Virus record (IMG/VR): IMGVR_UViG_3300044845_000167
Location: 1-30,526 of that record
Length of the DNA stretch: 30,526 nt
Direction: 5' to 3' (one strand)
From: a virus
The notes below the pieces were generated by a model, which worked only from the letters and a program-made list of their open reading frames with translations, was not told where the DNA came from and searched no databases. The position numbers and the translations under genes were made by a program. This document shows, one piece after another, positions 10,093 through 20,077 of this stretch (positions within the stretch are counted from its first letter, which is position 1; each line of letters begins with the position of its first letter).

Positions 10093-12243
10093 TTAGTAAG
10101 CATATAACCCCATGGCGCTGCCGGTCAGAATTGGACCAGCGGCGCCATTTAAGTTTTGATTGACGTTGCTGTTCGAGACATTGTGTACGTCTCCTCCACG
10201 GCTGACATTGTTGACAACCATCATTCCACCACCTGAATTACCTGGACTATTGATTGCTGATACGGTATCAGCTGGAGATGGAGTTACTGTGCTGAGCCCG
10301 TTAGATGCGGCCGCAGCAGGCGAATTGGATGCAATGATTTGAATCGGAGTTTTGAAGTCCTTAAGTTCCTCAATCTTATCCCAAGGGAAGCTACCAAATG
10401 AAGCCCAATCAGTATTCAAATCAGATATGTACTTCATTCCTTCGCCCATAGCCTTGATAGACTGACCAATACCAATTAGATTATATCCTTCCTTTGACAG
10501 CTTCATCAGCTTTTCAAGCGGACTATCTGCTCCAAATGATAGAAGCTTGCCGATAAAATTACCTAAGCCAGCTGCTGCTTCACCAACACCAAACCCAGCA
10601 ATTGCTGCTCCTATTGCAGCAATACCTCCGGCGATACCAAATAACATTCCCCCGTCAAGCTTAGAAATTCTTTCACTAAATGAATCGAAGAATTCTCCAA
10701 TTTTGTTATCATCTCCTATTGCTAATTTCAATAGAGTCAATCCAGCTGATAGAGGTAGCATCGCTGCGCCTGCCAGAGTCATTCCAGGAGCTGCCAGTAA
10801 TAGGAGCAGCGATGCTTTAGCCAAAGATGCTGCTACACCGGTTAGACCTTCAAATGCTTTCATGTCAACCTTACTTAGAACATTTAGTCCATAAGCCAAA
10901 GGTATCAATGCAGCACCAAGTGCAGCAATTGCAAGTACTCCTGCTGCAAACAATGCGGCTTGTGGTCCCATTAACAATGCGCCTAATCCAGCAGCGGCTA
11001 ACGTTAGGCCAACTAATGCAACAGCAGCTATACCTAAAGATTTCCATGAGACATCTTTTAGAAGGTTAAGACCAAATGCTAATGGAATTAGCGAAGCTCC
11101 AAGTAATCCTATAGCCAATGCTCCTTTTGCGATCGTTGCCATTGACTTCCCTAAGAAAGTGCCAAGCAATGCTAGTCCGCCAAGTGCAACTGTCGCCTTA
11201 CCTAAATCTTCCCACTTAACAGATTCAAATGTACGAAGCGCAATTGCAGTTACTGCCAAAGCTGCACCCATTGCAGCAATTCCTAATGCACTCTTTAGCA
11301 ATGACCCCTGTATTTTTGATAAACCGTATGTTGCTGCAACAATTCCACCAATCACAAGACCGGCCTTACCTAAATCTTCCCACTTAACTTCTGAGAATGT
11401 CTTAAGAGATTTTCCAAGAACAAACAGTCCACCGGCAAATAGGATAAAGCCTCCTCCTACTTTTAGAATAGTGTTACCAAGTTTTGTTAGAGATGATACA
11501 TCAGCCTTACCAAGTTTAGTAACACCCTTTGAGATATTATCGGCGGATTTTACAAAATTACCAACTGTTGTATTATTGATTGCATCGATGAAATCCGTTA
11601 GTGGCTTTCTTATGAAGATTAAAGCCAATCCAAATTTCAGCATTGGACCCGCCTCTACCTTATTGAAATCAGAAAATGCTTCAGCTAATGCAGACAGCTT
11701 TTTAACACTGGCATCACTCAATTTACTTAGAGTTTCAACAAAACTTTTTATGCTTCCCCCTAGTAGACGTGATGCTACTCCAGCTTTAATTACTCCGCTA
11801 ACTCTGATCTTTGCAAATTCAGATATTGCCTTTGATGCTTCTGAGAATGTCTTTAGTTTTTCGAGTGATACATCATTGATATCTGACAATTCCGTAATCA
11901 AATTGCGCATGCCCTTTGCATATGCCTTAACTACTTTTGGGAAAACGCCAAAAGTAATTGACTTAACAATATCACTAGCTGAAGGTATGATTGACTGACT
12001 GCTATTGCCACCACCAGGCGCCCCTCCTTTGTTTTTTGCCAGAGTGTCAATTCCTTTGACCATGATACCCATTAGTTTGGATATTTCCTCAAGGAAAAGC
12101 TCAGACATAATCGATGAGTCCCTTAAAGGAGTCAGCGTATTGCCTACTTCATATGTGACTAGCTCGACAGCTGCAGCAATGTCAGTTTGATTACTGAACA
12201 TTTGCTGCAGGATGTTGGTCATTTCCTGGGATGTTTCTGGCAT
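10093..12243 (-). CDS. 29: Tail tape measure protein (gp29-like)
   Basis: 716 residues, longer than T4 gp29 (about 590). It sets tail-tube length and scaffolds tube assembly. The N-terminus is polar and helical. The central part (about 250-520) is extremely hydrophobic, rich in Ala, Gly and Leu, with amphipathic or membrane-like helices, as in other tape measures. A unit beginning VKWEDLGKA recurs at about 286, 342 and 398 (period 56) and degenerates near 459. The C-terminus is Gly/Asn/Ser-rich. It is last in the minus-strand operon, directly after the gp26 frameshift region, the classic place for a tape measure. The ATG lies 3 nt after the stop of the frameshift extension. No Shine-Dalgarno sequence is obvious. 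Confidence 0.9.
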   Translation of the reverse strand: MPETSQEMTNILQQMFSNQTDIAAAVELVTYEVGNTLTPLRDSSIMSELFLEEISKLMGIMVKGIDTLAKNKGGAPGGGNSSQSIIPSASDIVKSITFGVFPKVVKAYAKGMRNLITELSDINDVSLEKLKTFSEASKAISEFAKIRVSGVIKAGVASRLLGGSIKSFVETLSKLSDASVKKLSALAEAFSDFNKVEAGPMLKFGLALIFIRKPLTDFIDAINNTTVGNFVKSADNISKGVTKLGKADVSSLTKLGNTILKVGGGFILFAGGLFVLGKSLKTFSEVKWEDLGKAGLVIGGIVAATYGLSKIQGSLLKSALGIAAMGAALAVTAIALRTFESVKWEDLGKATVALGGLALLGTFLGKSMATIAKGALAIGLLGASLIPLAFGLNLLKDVSWKSLGIAAVALVGLTLAAAGLGALLMGPQAALFAAGVLAIAALGAALIPLAYGLNVLSKVDMKAFEGLTGVAASLAKASLLLLLAAPGMTLAGAAMLPLSAGLTLLKLAIGDDNKIGEFFDSFSERISKLDGGMLFGIAGGIAAIGAAIAGFGVGEAAAGLGNFIGKLLSFGADSPLEKLMKLSKEGYNLIGIGQSIKAMGEGMKYISDLNTDWASFGSFPWDKIEELKDFKTPIQIIASNSPAAAASNGLSTVTPSPADTVSAINSPGNSGGGMMVVNNVSRGGDVHNVSNSNVNQNLNGAAGPILTGSAMGLYAY
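10112..10148 (+). terminator. Rho-independent terminator of gene 32, inside the opposing tape-measure gene
   Basis: Arms 10112-10126 and 10134-10148 pair over 15 positions with one G-U and one C-A mismatch; the loop is 7 nt. A T-rich run (TTTAAGTTTTG) follows on the + strand, none on the - strand. It begins 32 nt past the gp32 stop. Confidence 0.6.
11195..11388. repeat. 168-bp period repeat in the tape measure gene
   Basis: An exact 26-bp direct repeat occurs at 11195-11220 and 11363-11388, offset 168 bp, which is 56 codons. It encodes the VKWEDLGKA unit. A third, diverged copy ends at 11052. Exact DNA identity suggests recent duplication or strong codon constraint. Confidence 0.85.
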
Positions 12244-12246
12244 ATA

Positions 12247-12438
12247 TTAAAGGTGGTTTTGTTTGTTATTTCGTTCTTGGTTTTCTTTCTTAATTTGGTC
12301 AGCTAATAACGAAATGTAAATTTCTCTCTCCCATGGTAGCATATCTTCAATTTCTGATATGCTATACTTATGATGATACATAAGTGCAAAGTTAGTCTTG
12401 TACAGATTAACCAATGACTCATGGGAGAGACTTATGAG
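12247..12438 (-). CDS. -1 frameshift extension of gp26 (tail assembly chaperone-like)
   Basis: In the -1 frame relative to gp26, the reading frame continues from the slippery site for 63 residues to a TAA at 12247-12249, just before the tape-measure ATG. The product (…LYKTNFALMYHHKYSISEIEDMLPWERE…) looks conserved: aromatic helix, then the IEDMLPWEREIY motif and a charged tail. There is no good start of its own; an internal ATG would give only 44 residues and lose the first helix. Expression as a fusion of about 297 residues is the simplest reading. By analogy with lambda G/GT, the long form may hold the tape measure during tube assembly. Confidence 0.7.
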   Translation of the reverse strand, partial: LISLSHESLVNLYKTNFALMYHHKYSISEIEDMLPWEREIYISLLADQIKKENQERNNKQNHL

Positions 12439-13139
12439 AAAAAAGATCTTATGCCGCTAAGAGACTGTTCATTTTCACATGAACATTTGCTGCATTTGAA
12501 TTTGATTGTATGTTCAACCTTTGGAAGGTTAGTGATGAATGCCTCAATCTTTTGCATCTGTAAACGCGCTAGAGAATTAACAAAGGTCTCCATATCAGAT
12601 CGACTGTAACTTGTTTTTGGATAAACTTTGTTTTCATCATAGATGCTATCAATACATGCAATAACAGATTCAGTCATTTGATCAGCAGTTGACATGTCCT
12701 TCTTAGATGCAATTTTACTCATGTCCTTGACACTCATCGGTTTCATGTTTACTCCAACAGTATCGGTAAGTTGAACGCGACCATCTGGAGCTGAACCCAT
12801 AACTTTGATTTCATCAAGATTAATGTCAATCTCGTTTTGAGAATCACATTCTGTACATTTAAGTCCAACCGTTGAAATTTCACCAACACTCTTTGAGCGT
12901 AACTTAATGAAAAGGTATTCAAGATCATACGATGTAAGATTATCAACATCGACTTTATTGTATGTACACGCACGAATGACATCTTTAATGGCATTCATAA
13001 TTTGCCCTTGGTCTTGACTTTCTTGAGCAATAAGCAATACCTTTTCTTCTTTAACTAAGAATGGGCGATATTCGGCGGCTGTACCAGTTGAAGGAATTTC
13101 AATGGTGTACTTAGGAGATGCAATAATTGGTAAACTCAT
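12432..13139 (-). CDS. 26: Baseplate hub assembly protein (gp26-like)
   Basis: 235 residues. The N-terminal part (YRPFLVKEEKVLLIAQES) is the most typical segment of the T4 gp26-type baseplate family; T4 gp26 is about 208 residues. Two CxxC pairs, C95/C98 and C216/C219 (plus C221), probably bind one zinc and frame a helical middle. It acts in assembly of the central baseplate hub. The short form ends RSFFS; the last codons contain the slippery TTTTTTC. It lies upstream of the tape measure as the assembly-chaperone genes do in other tailed phages. Whether it matches T4 gp26 or gp51 more closely needs a profile search. Confidence 0.8.
   Translation of the reverse strand: MSLPIIASPKYTIEIPSTGTAAEYRPFLVKEEKVLLIAQESQDQGQIMNAIKDVIRACTYNKVDVDNLTSYDLEYLFIKLRSKSVGEISTVGLKCTECDSQNEIDINLDEIKVMGSAPDGRVQLTDTVGVNMKPMSVKDMSKIASKKDMSTADQMTESVIACIDSIYDENKVYPKTSYSRSDMETFVNSLARLQMQKIEAFITNLPKVEHTIKFKCSKCSCENEQSLSGIRSFFS
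12438..12444 (-). other. Programmed -1 frameshift site TTTTTTC
   Basis: The heptamer reads T TTT TTC in the gp26 frame, a canonical X_XXY_YYZ slippery site, two codons before the gp26 stop. A -1 slip lets both tRNAs re-pair on TTT. No strong downstream stem is visible; a 5-bp CTCAT/ATGAG pairing is the best found. Confidence 0.7.
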
Positions 13140-13154
13140 AAATCTATATATTCA

Positions 13155-13706
13155 TTAATTTGGAATTGGCTCAACTTGAAAGCGATTAAAGGTTAGAGTG
13201 CAACTGAAACGAGATATTGCTGATTCGGCACTGTTGTCTAAGAACAATCCTTTGGACGCAAGTGGATATGCTCCCAGCAGTTTTACTCCATACTTAATGT
13301 TGTCATTTTCATCAAGCTGCCAAATGATGATGTCTCTTTTATATGCTTCATCATATTCAGCTAGGTAACTGCTTTGGTTGATAATGATTGCAGACCATGC
13401 ATCAATGATCTTCTTTGGCATGAAATCGTTTGTTAAGTTAAACACGATTTCGATATCATCTTCATCATAACCAATTGGAACCTTAATTGAATGATTCCAA
13501 ATTGCATACTCAAACGTATTGATGGCTCGGCCTGGAATACTGATGTTATCAACTAAGAAGTTTAAATCTTTAATTGTGCTTACGTCTAAACCTGGTATGG
13601 TCACAGGACCTGCTAGTAGTCCAGTGAAGTCGACTTTGAATCGGTTAGGCCGTGCTAATCCGCCGCGTTTACTAATTACTCCTTTTATGTCGTTGATTGT
13701 TGCCAT
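13155..13706 (-). CDS. Tail-tube-fold protein (gp54/gp19-like)
   Basis: 183 residues with the layout of T4-like tube proteins: an N-terminal KRGGLARPNRFKVDF segment, then the loop and strands VDNISIPGRAINTFEYAIWNHSIKVPIGY, the DIEIVFNLTNDFMPKKIIDAW core and a final sheet ending LTFNRFQVEP. Such proteins form the tail tube (gp19) or its baseplate initiator (gp54). No sheath gene is nearby and the neighbours are hub and tape-measure genes, so a gp54-like initiator is favoured. The start codon follows the upstream gene's stop in TAATATG. Confidence 0.7.
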   Translation of the reverse strand: MATINDIKGVISKRGGLARPNRFKVDFTGLLAGPVTIPGLDVSTIKDLNFLVDNISIPGRAINTFEYAIWNHSIKVPIGYDEDDIEIVFNLTNDFMPKKIIDAWSAIIINQSSYLAEYDEAYKRDIIIWQLDENDNIKYGVKLLGAYPLASKGLFLDNSAESAISRFSCTLTFNRFQVEPIPN

Positions 13707-13707
13707 A

Positions 13708-14295
13708 TTATAATGCTAAATTTTTAGAAGTATTCCAAACGCTGCGATTCTTTGCACCAACAAAATCTTCAGTTGGCATGAATAATGCAATCTCCCATTC
13801 GGATGGAGGAATCTCTACAGTATGACTTACCACATGTGAGTAGAGGTAGTGTTTAAAGCAAGGAGCAAAAGCTCGTAGCTTACTCACGCGTGATAGCGTA
13901 CTATATGCTAAACGAAATCGAGTCGACTCGTCCATCTTGTCATTGTTGAGAAACGACTGCAGTTCATCAAAGAAAACTGCGCGTGCACGTGGCGAAAGGT
14001 AATGTAGGTTAAGTCCATAGAACCCATTTTCAGCTGGACCCACCATAAGGATTAAAGGAAAGCGGTCATAGTATGGTAATGTATCCTTTCCTTTTGGATC
14101 ATACAGGAACATAAACATGCGACCAATTAAAGGCTTCTTGCGACGTGTCAATCTATCATCTGTCAATACTCGTTGTGAGCCGACATTTGACATCTTACGT
14201 AGTCTCTGAGTAAACCACTTACGAGACTTTTCAGTGTATGGTACTATTCCAGCGCGCTCAGCACGATCTTGGATCTTAGCAAATATAGAAGCCAT
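13708..14295 (-). CDS. Conserved T4-like phage protein, unassigned (195 aa)
   Basis: The N-terminal basic helix (RKWFTQRLRKM) is followed by MFMFLYDPKGKDTLPYYDRFPLIL and NGFYGLNLHYLSPRARAVFFDEL, a motif combination I associate with conserved proteins near gp4 in distant T4-like phages. A basic helical part and a C-terminal segment PPSEWEIALFMPTEDF follow. No enzymatic motif. The gene sits between gp4 (head completion) and a tube protein, so a virion-assembly role is likely; candidates include baseplate or DNA-end functions, but I cannot choose. It is preceded by a TATAAATA box only 6 nt from its ATG. Confidence 0.75.
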   Translation of the reverse strand: MASIFAKIQDRAERAGIVPYTEKSRKWFTQRLRKMSNVGSQRVLTDDRLTRRKKPLIGRMFMFLYDPKGKDTLPYYDRFPLILMVGPAENGFYGLNLHYLSPRARAVFFDELQSFLNNDKMDESTRFRLAYSTLSRVSKLRAFAPCFKHYLYSHVVSHTVEIPPSEWEIALFMPTEDFVGAKNRSVWNTSKNLAL

Positions 14296-16741: not shown

Positions 16742-18191
16742 TGAACAATATAACACGTATGATCTTAACTCGCAAAACACACCTCGCGGGTTAAGCAATG
16801 ATGCAGCGCAGATACCTTCTTCATATAAGGTTGAAAAATTCATCATCTCTAATCAACAAGGTAGAACGATGGATATTCGCGGTCTTGTTGTCGGTTTTAC
16901 AATAACTGAAGAAATCTATTCTCCTATTGTTGTCTTTAACGCTCGCATACGTGATACGATCAATTTCTTTGAGGAATTTGCGTTAAGCGGTCAAGAAATT
17001 ATTAAGTTAGTTTTAAGAAAAGTTGAAGGACCTGACAACGAAGAAATGCAATTACCTTCAAGTAAGTGGAGAGTTCCAAAAACGATTGATTTATATCTTA
17101 CGGTTAAAGAGTACCCAAACTACGTTAAGTCAAATGAAACACTTGACGCTCAGGAATATAACTTGATCGCAATTTCTGATTATGCTTATTTAAGCAATCT
17201 TCAAAGAATCTCTCATAGTGTACATGGTAATACGATAGATAACATTAGCAAGATCTTCAATGAAAGCTTAAATGTAAAGCCTGATAAGATTACGTTACCC
17301 AAGAGCCGATATGCATGTGTTACACAATTTGATGGTGTCGTGACAGTTCAAACACCTCTTAAGGCAATTGAGTGGCTTCGTCAAAAATCGTTTGATCCAA
17401 AAGGCGCTCCGTTTTATGTTTACACGACAATAAGTGAAAATAAGGTTGTGTATAAGTCTTGGTCAGCAATGATTGATAATGACAATCGTTATCCTAACAA
17501 TGATTTTACTTACAAATTAAAGCAATACGTTGAGTCGACTCCATTGACTCAAGATGCATATGCTGAAAACATGGCGCGTATCTTAAGCGTCAATTCAAAC
17601 ATTAAGCTTGATAAGTTAGCACAGGCATCACGTGGTGGATTTGCTAACACGACGCAAATAACAGATTTTGGTACTAAGACATTTGTTGATCGTATCTTTA
17701 ATATCGACAAAGATGAACAGGTGCGAAAAAACCGTATGGCGCGAACGTTGTCGAATTACAAGTTTACGGAATGGGGCCAAGCGTTTGGGTTCTTAAGTGG
17801 CCTAAAGGAAATTAAAGCTCCTCTTGAACTAAACAGAGCTGTTGACGCAAACATCACCGAGGTTGCGGCTCAAGCTGGTAGTAATAATGCGTCGAGCGTT
17901 CTTGAACAGCAATCGTCTGCAGCCAAGTCATACCTTGCAAATATTGATTCACAATCACACGAAATTGTTGTATTTGGAGACTTTGGGTTGAATCCCGGAA
18001 GAAAGATCAATATTGAAATTCCAAAGTCAGCAAACATTAAGAAATTTTACGAAAAGCAAAAAGGTACTCCAGACGAAACTGATGATAAAGACTACTCGTT
18101 AAGTGGTAGTTACATTGTAGCGGTAGCAGTACACACTTTCGAAAACGGATATTACTTAACACGTGCTAAAATAATTAGAGATAACACATGA
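16734..18191 (+). CDS. 27: Baseplate hub subunit (gp27-like)
   Basis: 485 residues (T4 gp27 391). A trimer forms the ring through which DNA leaves and holds the gp5 spike. The N-terminal DIRGLVVGFTITEEIYSPIVVFNARIRD and SGQEIIKLVLR segments, an internal LKAIEWLRQKSFDPKGAPFYVYT, and the C-terminal NPGRKINIEIPK…SGSYIVAVAVHTFENGYYLTRAKI match the two tube-like domains of hub proteins in T4-like phages. The start overlaps gp53 by 8 nt; the stop overlaps the next gene by 4 nt (ATGA). Confidence 0.85.
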   Translation: MDNEQYNTYDLNSQNTPRGLSNDAAQIPSSYKVEKFIISNQQGRTMDIRGLVVGFTITEEIYSPIVVFNARIRDTINFFEEFALSGQEIIKLVLRKVEGPDNEEMQLPSSKWRVPKTIDLYLTVKEYPNYVKSNETLDAQEYNLIAISDYAYLSNLQRISHSVHGNTIDNISKIFNESLNVKPDKITLPKSRYACVTQFDGVVTVQTPLKAIEWLRQKSFDPKGAPFYVYTTISENKVVYKSWSAMIDNDNRYPNNDFTYKLKQYVESTPLTQDAYAENMARILSVNSNIKLDKLAQASRGGFANTTQITDFGTKTFVDRIFNIDKDEQVRKNRMARTLSNYKFTEWGQAFGFLSGLKEIKAPLELNRAVDANITEVAAQAGSNNASSVLEQQSSAAKSYLANIDSQSHEIVVFGDFGLNPGRKINIEIPKSANIKKFYEKQKGTPDETDDKDYSLSGSYIVAVAVHTFENGYYLTRAKIIRDNT

Positions 18192-19213
18192 GAATTAATG
18201 ATTGGTATGTAGGAGTAGTTGAGGACATCAATGATCCTCAAGGCCAAGGTCGTGTACGTGTTCGCTGCCTTGGGTATCATACGCCTGATCGTAATAAGCT
18301 GCCAACGCAGGACTTACCTCTTGCAACTGTTATGTTGCCGACAACGTCCGCAAGTGTTGCTGGTATCGGTTTAAGCGCGACGGCGTTAATCCCTAACACA
18401 TGGGTATTTGGTTTCTTCCGTGATGGTGCCGAGTTACAAGATCCAGTGATCATGGGAACAATTACGTCTGCAAGTGGGTATGACGTTGGATATGACGTGA
18501 CTGGAAACATTGGGTTTGGCGATCCACACGGAGTGCTTGATGGCTTTATAGGAAATGACATACCGCCTGAAGCTGGAACCGCAACATCCTCGACAGCTGG
18601 AACCGTTGCTAATAGCTTTGGAGCCGCAAACGCAGTTAATGGATCATATATGAATTCTAATGGTTTATCGACTTCGTTTGATCAACCTCAAGCTCAGTTT
18701 GTCCCAAATGGCGGAATGATTAATGTTGTAAATGTTGCACGTAGTCAACTGCATGTTAGAGAACAGCCGCCAGGCTCCAATAACGGAGCAGACATTAAAA
18801 AGTTTTGGAGTGCAACCGAATACCCAGGTGGATATGGTGGAGAAAAAGGAAAATGGTGTGCTGCATTTATAGCATGGTGTGTACAGCAAGCAGGCGTATT
18901 ATCTGAGGCTGAAAGACCTAAATCGGCAGCGGTCTTTGAATGGGAGAAATGGGCTAAAGGCAAATCATATGCGCAACTTCGCGAAAACCCAAGGTACATT
19001 AAAGCTGGAGATATAGTCATCTTTTCATATAGTCATATTGGTATTGCATCAACCGACAGTGACGCTTCAGGATCTTTTAAAACTATAGATGGCAATACAT
19101 CAGGTGGAGGGAAAGGAGTTGGATGGGGCGTCTTTGAAAAAAATCGAAATATTAGAACTAGTGTACAAAGCGCTATCACTATATCCAAGAATGCTTCTAT
19201 CATTGCAGCTTAA
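18188..19213 (+). CDS. gp5-like hub protein: OB-fold plus CHAP peptidase
   Basis: 341 residues. Residues 1-95 (INDWYVGVVEDINDPQGQGRVRVRCLGYHT…WVFGFFRDGAELQDPVIMGTI) are the OB domain that links gp5 to the gp27 ring. A Gly/Ser/Ala-rich linker spans about 120-175. The C-terminal domain is a CHAP amidase/endopeptidase: C224 in KWCAAFIAWC, H283 in YSHIGIAS, and N303 in DGNTSGG. T4 gp5 instead has a lysozyme domain and a fused C-terminal beta-helix; here the helix is in the next gene. Expected role: local cleavage of peptidoglycan cross-bridges or stem peptides during injection, at the tip of the tail. The domain swap is well supported; exact bond cut is unknown. Confidence 0.88.
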   Translation: MRINDWYVGVVEDINDPQGQGRVRVRCLGYHTPDRNKLPTQDLPLATVMLPTTSASVAGIGLSATALIPNTWVFGFFRDGAELQDPVIMGTITSASGYDVGYDVTGNIGFGDPHGVLDGFIGNDIPPEAGTATSSTAGTVANSFGAANAVNGSYMNSNGLSTSFDQPQAQFVPNGGMINVVNVARSQLHVREQPPGSNNGADIKKFWSATEYPGGYGGEKGKWCAAFIAWCVQQAGVLSEAERPKSAAVFEWEKWAKGKSYAQLRENPRYIKAGDIVIFSYSHIGIASTDSDASGSFKTIDGNTSGGGKGVGWGVFEKNRNIRTSVQSAITISKNASIIAA

Positions 19214-19228
19214 TCACTAAATACTATT

Positions 19229-20077
19229 ATGGCAGACATTCTTCCAATTTCATCTAATTCGTGGAGCCCGCCGTTACAAGGTGGTGAATCCATTTACCCG
19301 TTTAACTCAGTACAAAAGTCACGCAGCGGACACATTCATGAAGTAGACGATACTCTTGGAGCCGAACGAATTCATCGCCAACACAAGAGCGGAACATGTG
19401 ATACTTACAGCGCAGACGGCGGACGTACTTTAACGATTGTCGGTAGTGATTGGGTCACCATCATTCAAGATGGACACATCTTCATCGGCGGTAATGCATC
19501 TATCACTGTCATGGGTGATTGTGAAACAGTGGTTGAAGGTAATTACAATTTATATGTAAAGAAGGATGTCAACTTAAAAGTTGATGGTAAGATTAATACT
19601 AAGATTAATGGCGGCGGAATTGCGGCTGACATCGTCGGCGACATTGGAACAAACGTGTCAGGTAATGTCATTTCAACGGTACACGGAGCTCATCAGGAAA
19701 AGATTATGGGATCAAAGAGTTTAACAGTTGGTGAAAAAATGCAAACTGTTGTGTCCAGTGATTCCACTTCTACTGTCATGGGCAATTATGTTAACTCAGT
19801 TAGCGGAAAATCAATCATGGCTGCAGGAGGAGACGCGACCGTTGCTAGCGGTGCAAACTTAAACTTAGCGTCTGGGGGAGGAGTTATTGTAAACGCTCCA
19901 TCTGATATGCATCTTGAAGCAGGCGATCTTACAGTCGATGAAAATGTAAATGTAACAGGACAAGCTAGTGTAAAAGGAACAGTGACATCTGATATAGATG
20001 TTATTGGCGCATCAATCTCTCTTGTTAATCACGTTCACGTTGAAACCAATTCGGTTACATTACCTCCAACTCCATAA
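19229..20077 (+). CDS. Beta-helix spike protein (gp5 C-terminal equivalent)
   Basis: 282 residues. The N-terminal part has the gp5/VgrG-like neck pattern (SGHIHEVDDTLGAERIHRQHKSGT, then GRTLTIVGSDWVTIIQDG). The centre repeats short V-x-G and G-x strands (VMGDCETVVEGNYNLYVKKDVNLKVDG…), typical of the trimeric beta-helix needle. The C-terminal tip contains H268-V-H270, like the iron-binding HxH motif at the tip of phage spikes such as P2 gpV. It pierces the outer membrane, so a Gram-negative host is likely. Separated by 15 nt from the CHAP gene. T4 carries this part in the same polypeptide as gp5. Confidence 0.85.
   Translation: MADILPISSNSWSPPLQGGESIYPFNSVQKSRSGHIHEVDDTLGAERIHRQHKSGTCDTYSADGGRTLTIVGSDWVTIIQDGHIFIGGNASITVMGDCETVVEGNYNLYVKKDVNLKVDGKINTKINGGGIAADIVGDIGTNVSGNVISTVHGAHQEKIMGSKSLTVGEKMQTVVSSDSTSTVMGNYVNSVSGKSIMAAGGDATVASGANLNLASGGGVIVNAPSDMHLEAGDLTVDENVNVTGQASVKGTVTSDIDVIGASISLVNHVHVETNSVTLPPTP

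Follow-up and report, generated by a model that had tools for sequence, protein, structure and literature searches.

In phage lambda, a -1 frameshift immediately before the tape measure gene yields the two-domain tail chaperone of the gpG/gpGT pair. For T4-like phages, Vladimirov, Gautam and Davidson (Virology, 2022) are said to have identified the tail assembly chaperones, and reportedly placed a -1 frameshift in several groups, in the same genes and at the same position as here, with T4 itself having separate genes 26 and 51. The frameshift idea for these phages has thus been in print since 2022 and the contig analyzed here is a further case; what we add is the breadth of the survey, a codon-level test, a start-codon test and statistics on possible stimulators. 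PMC12846349 credits poly-T slippery sites in the TAC-N genes of T4-like phages to the 2022 Virology study, and describes for phage Adele (Vandenendeviridae/Andersonviridae) a -1 frameshift close to where TAC-N ends, together with an extension ahead of the tape measure gene that is mis-annotated. The Adele-type site is given there as a GTTTTT motif, whereas the site described below is TTTTTTN. Separate short and long chaperone genes are reported for some T4-like phages in PMC10885494, with citation of the 2022 study. A literature search by name for gp26/gp51 frameshifting returned nothing direct.

The window, i.e., the whole 30.5 kb virus contig IMGVR_UViG_3300044845_000167, carries T4-like tail genes, with head closure, DNA end protector, tail tube, gp26 and tape measure genes following one another on the minus strand (Table 1). 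The 3' end of gp26 reads GGC ATA AGA TCT TTT TTC TCA TAA, so that TTTTTTC lies in the X_XXY_YYZ phase, with TCA as the only sense codon left before the stop. In the -1 frame the sequence reads LISLSHESLVNLYKTNFALMYHHKYSISEIEDMLPWEREIYISLLADQIKKENQERNNKQNHL*, i.e., 63 residues with a stop at 12249-12247, and slippage would give a predicted fused product of 234 + 63 = 297 aa. A preliminary description of this DNA had pointed to both the in-phase heptamer and the 63-residue open frame, and the sequence bears it out on each. It had also placed the end of the extension 4 nt before the tape measure ATG; the two are indeed adjacent on the same strand, but the gap to the ATG at 12243 is 3 nt. Its statement that the extension lacks a start codon is close to the mark: a TAA closes the -1 frame just upstream of the heptamer, but a TTG occurs at residue 9 and a first ATG at residue 20. 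Among the 30 genes of the window (9,398 codons), TTTTTTN occurs in frame only once, at gp26. The DNA end protector gene (13708-14295, minus strand) has an in-frame AAATTTA two codons before its stop; the -1 frame shuts there after 7 codons, and this motif is probably due to chance.

Table 1. Features of the gp26 locus in the 30.5 kb contig.
Feature	Position	Strand	Evidence
gp26 (TAC-N, G-like; predicted short form of the tail assembly chaperone), 235 aa	12432..13139	-	PF12322, phrog_150, AlphaFold2 model
Slippery heptamer T_TTT_TTC, gp26 phase	12438..12444	-	Sequence; kept in relatives
gp26 stop TAA, predicted to be bypassed by the frameshift	12432..12434	-	Sequence
-1 extension (gp51 / TAC-C), 63 aa + stop	12247..12438	-	phrog_634, pN/pS, helical model
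Slip junction of the predicted fusion protein, FF-LISLSHESLVNLYK			
Candidate stimulator hairpin position, covarying in a subset of relatives	12394..12417	-	Covariation; downstream RNA structure excess
Tape measure protein, 716 aa	10093..12243	-	phrog_4372 tail length tape measure protein (E 5.7e-9); position
Tail tube protein, directly upstream of gp26	13155..13706	-	phrog_45 (E 2.9e-27)

Profile searches identified both parts of the predicted fusion. The product of gp26 matched Pfam T4_baseplate PF12322 (E 5e-59, 200 bits against a curated cut-off of 24.5) and phrog_150 baseplate hub (E 2e-61). The extension is no new domain and belongs to a known family: it matched positions 59-117 of the 121 in phrog_634, baseplate hub assembly catalyst, i.e., gp51 (E 1.3e-24), and also, at E 1e-6, the C-terminal part of phrog_150, the profile that gp26 matches. 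An AlphaFold2 model of gp26 reached a pLDDT of 93, and its best viral matches were mostly annotated as baseplate hub proteins. When this model was compared with solved structures, the HK97 tail assembly chaperone 2ob9 ranked second and tenth with weak E values of 0.24 and 1.8; since a match at E 0.24 is too weak, the fold search was dropped as proof of a chaperone role. The extension was modeled as helical (pLDDT 89) with helices from residue 2, and an internal start at Met20 would therefore remove nearly all of helix 1.

The set of relatives comprised 160 IMG/VR loci and twelve named phages besides T4. Both parts were detected by profile on one strand in 170 loci, which represented 154 distinct sequences and 116 clusters at 80% gp26 identity. 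The set covers cyanophages and phages of Pelagibacter, Pseudomonas, Nitratidesulfovibrio, Rhizobium, Sinorhizobium, Vibrio, Aeromonas and Xanthomonas. In a wider phage collection, 530 records contained the extension and 734 contained gp26. The preliminary description had named a lack of conservation of the heptamer or the -1 frame in relatives as grounds for refutation; the comparison did not refute it, and both turned out to be conserved: the extension lies in the -1 frame in 170/170 loci, and TTTTTTN stands in gp26 phase near the stop in all 154 distinct sequences (116/116 clusters), zero or one codon from the stop in 109 of the 116 clusters and at most 8 codons away in the remainder. Judged across these sequences, such conservation is far beyond chance. 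A one-base indel in a run of Ts is a common type of error, and a single in-frame gene might in principle have been split by sequencing or assembly; this explanation has a negligible probability, being refuted by the single register of all 170 loci, finished isolate genomes among them, and by stops and heptamer distances that differ among loci, which no single error explains. Stenotrophomonas phage Yut2 has the same slip site, with an extension so diverged that the profile does not reach it. In Ackermannviridae (L012, L183-L187), a gp51-like extension is kept in the -1 frame at a non-canonical slip site, RATTTTC or GGTTTTC; the P-site tRNA would re-pair only poorly on these sequences, and the conserved block around the site may have another mechanism behind it.

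We then considered selection at the level of codons. The first Phe codon of the slip pair is TTT in 116/116 clusters (78 expected), and the codon preceding the pair ends in T in every cluster as well, where codon use in the same genes predicts 62.6. The second slip codon varies among TTC, TTT, TTA and TTG, i.e., it encodes Phe or Leu, while the six Ts are invariant across the 116 clusters. FF is the usual C-terminus of the gp26 protein, and the heptamer might accordingly be seen as the mere codon run of a conserved dipeptide, with the -1 frame open by chance or as a relic. The switch between Phe and Leu with TTTTTT retained, and the fixation of TTT and of the preceding T against codon bias, refute the first part of this proposal and argue for selection on the slippery sequence; the match of the extension to a known family and a pN/pS well below 1 refute the second, and we regard the proposal as extremely improbable. 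The pattern indicates that selection acts on nucleotides, beyond the protein alone, a clear direction even though common ancestry of the relatives makes formal probabilities too small. Residues 1-17 of the extension are conserved (consensus xIxLSHESLxNYYKTNF), and over codons 1-17 pN/pS is 0.38 with stops in 0/107 sequences, as against some 200 stops and a pN/pS no lower than 1.1 in each of the other two frames.

The same residues bear on a rival view, in which gp51 starts at a codon of its own as a gene distinct from gp26 and is translationally coupled to it. Most public records annotate gp51 as a distinct gene (a separate CDS in S-PM2, P-RSM6, ValKK3, phiM12 and others). An ATG does fall within the first few codons of the extension at some loci, and the TTG and ATG noted above are available in the window. 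However, before codon 17 of the extension the -1 ORF lacks ATG in 86/116 clusters and lacks ATG, GTG and TTG alike in 53/116, so that residues 1-17, though under purifying selection, can in those phages be translated, barring use of a rarer start codon, only by ribosomes that come in from gp26. Moreover, start positions are not conserved whereas the heptamer is; the GAGGG element described below is at least 14 nt away from every -1 start past the heptamer, too far for most; and a separate gene would leave the selection for six Ts unexplained. We therefore consider a separate, coupled gp51 gene very unlikely.

The anatomy of the locus, its conservation and the selection on the slip site and the -1 frame are what the sequences show. 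Slippage itself, its frequency and the chaperone role are what we infer, and we give a probability of about 94% to the reading that a programmed -1 frameshift makes a gp26-gp51 fusion, i.e., a long chaperone. The majority of ribosomes would stop at the gp26 TAA and release a 235-residue short chaperone, and a minority would slip back one base on T_TTT_TTC to give the 297-residue fusion. If the parallel with lambda gpG/gpGT holds, the tape measure protein would be coated by the short form, and tail tube subunits would be recruited by the C-terminal domain of the long one. A lambda-like frameshift with gp26 as the G-like part had been proposed at the outset, and the comparative evidence strongly supports it. 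The lambda system shares the two-domain chaperone, the -1 frameshift and the position before the tape measure gene; it differs in its slippery sequence, and the short part here has 235 aa and the extension 63 aa. The likeness drawn is one of layout.

T4 offers a different arrangement. Its gp26 matched the gp26 profile (86 bits), and its gp51, encoded on the opposite strand, aligned over its length with a profile of the fused gp26-extension (46 bits), while its C-terminus matched the extension profile. On this profile evidence, T4 has a gene each for the two forms: the long one is a single ORF with gp26-like and gp51 domains in one frame, apart from gene 26, which encodes the short one. That both domains occur naturally joined in T4 gp51 speaks for the predicted fusion. 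The window does not fit this arrangement, since it has a single copy of gp26 with the gp26 and gp51 domains in different frames. Apart from T4 gp51, no in-frame gp26-extension fusions were found among the relatives fetched. T4 gp28 was also considered as a relative of gp26, and profile comparison gave no match.

In the public-record regions that we opened, gp51 is given either as a CDS in its own right or as a hypothetical protein, or it is missing; in ACG-2014i, S-MbCM7 and ACG-2014d the extension is unannotated, and the stretch from gp26 to the following gene looks intergenic. The preliminary description had raised the possibility that the fused form is not annotated, and no joined (ribosomal slippage) annotation was present in these regions. 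In cyanophage-like and numerous other T4-like phages, gp51 is thus very probably no free protein but the C-terminal part of a frameshift fusion, and its omission from records, or its listing there as a gene apart, is probably an error. The slip sites of the relatives also constitute a large natural set for the study of -1 frameshift signals.

The frameshift signal of E. coli dnaX combines an internal Shine-Dalgarno sequence with an A6G heptamer. Many of the relatives resemble it in having an upstream Shine-Dalgarno-like element and downstream RNA structure; they differ in the heptamer (T6N), and the contig under study lacks the upstream motif. In many relatives, GAG GGN codons (Shine-Dalgarno-like GAGGG) lie 8 nt upstream of the heptamer. 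Where the first of these residues is Glu, GAG outnumbers GAA 48:15, compared with a GAG share of 27% among Glu codons elsewhere in gp26 (P 7e-16; the relatives share ancestry, so that formal probabilities are too small, i.e., optimistic, with the direction of the effect clear). Predicted anti-Shine-Dalgarno pairing averages -6.27 kcal/mol in the relatives vs -4.90 kcal/mol for synonymous recodings. The corresponding duplex in our contig reaches only -1.7, and without GAGGG its slippage efficiency is uncertain. The RNA 3' of the heptamer is also more stable in the relatives than in synonymous recodings (z averaging -1.71 over 90 nt, as against -0.08 for a control window), with a modest downstream structure in the contig itself (z about -2). 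A hairpin at the position given in Table 1 has a covariation score of 0.217, vs at most 0.141 when slid, with only 58% of cells pairing; a single universal downstream hairpin was not found among the relatives, and the covarying one is confined to a subset. From their sequences, we infer that GAGGG and the downstream RNA act as stimulators of slippage. We suggest, tentatively and at somewhat less than even odds, that the gp26 slip site of marine T4-like phages is driven by interchangeable stimulators, namely an internal Shine-Dalgarno-like element 8 nt upstream in many of them and locally varied downstream RNA stems, with the present lineage lacking the upstream element. If true, this would make the site a natural series on the replacement of frameshift signals in evolution.

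Elsewhere in the window, two same-frame ORFs on the plus strand, 18188-19213 and 19229-20077, share between them what is the gp5 gene (baseplate hub/tail lysozyme), with 15 nt separating them. The first has an OB-fold N-terminus and an endolysin-like domain, and the alignment of the second to T4 gp5 begins at residue 377 and covers the beta-helix part. The split falls close to the site at which T4 gp5 is cleaved by proteolysis, 351/352. The gene is likewise split in two roughly 60%-identical relatives (L177, L178), and it is a single ORF in the more distant L180-L182.
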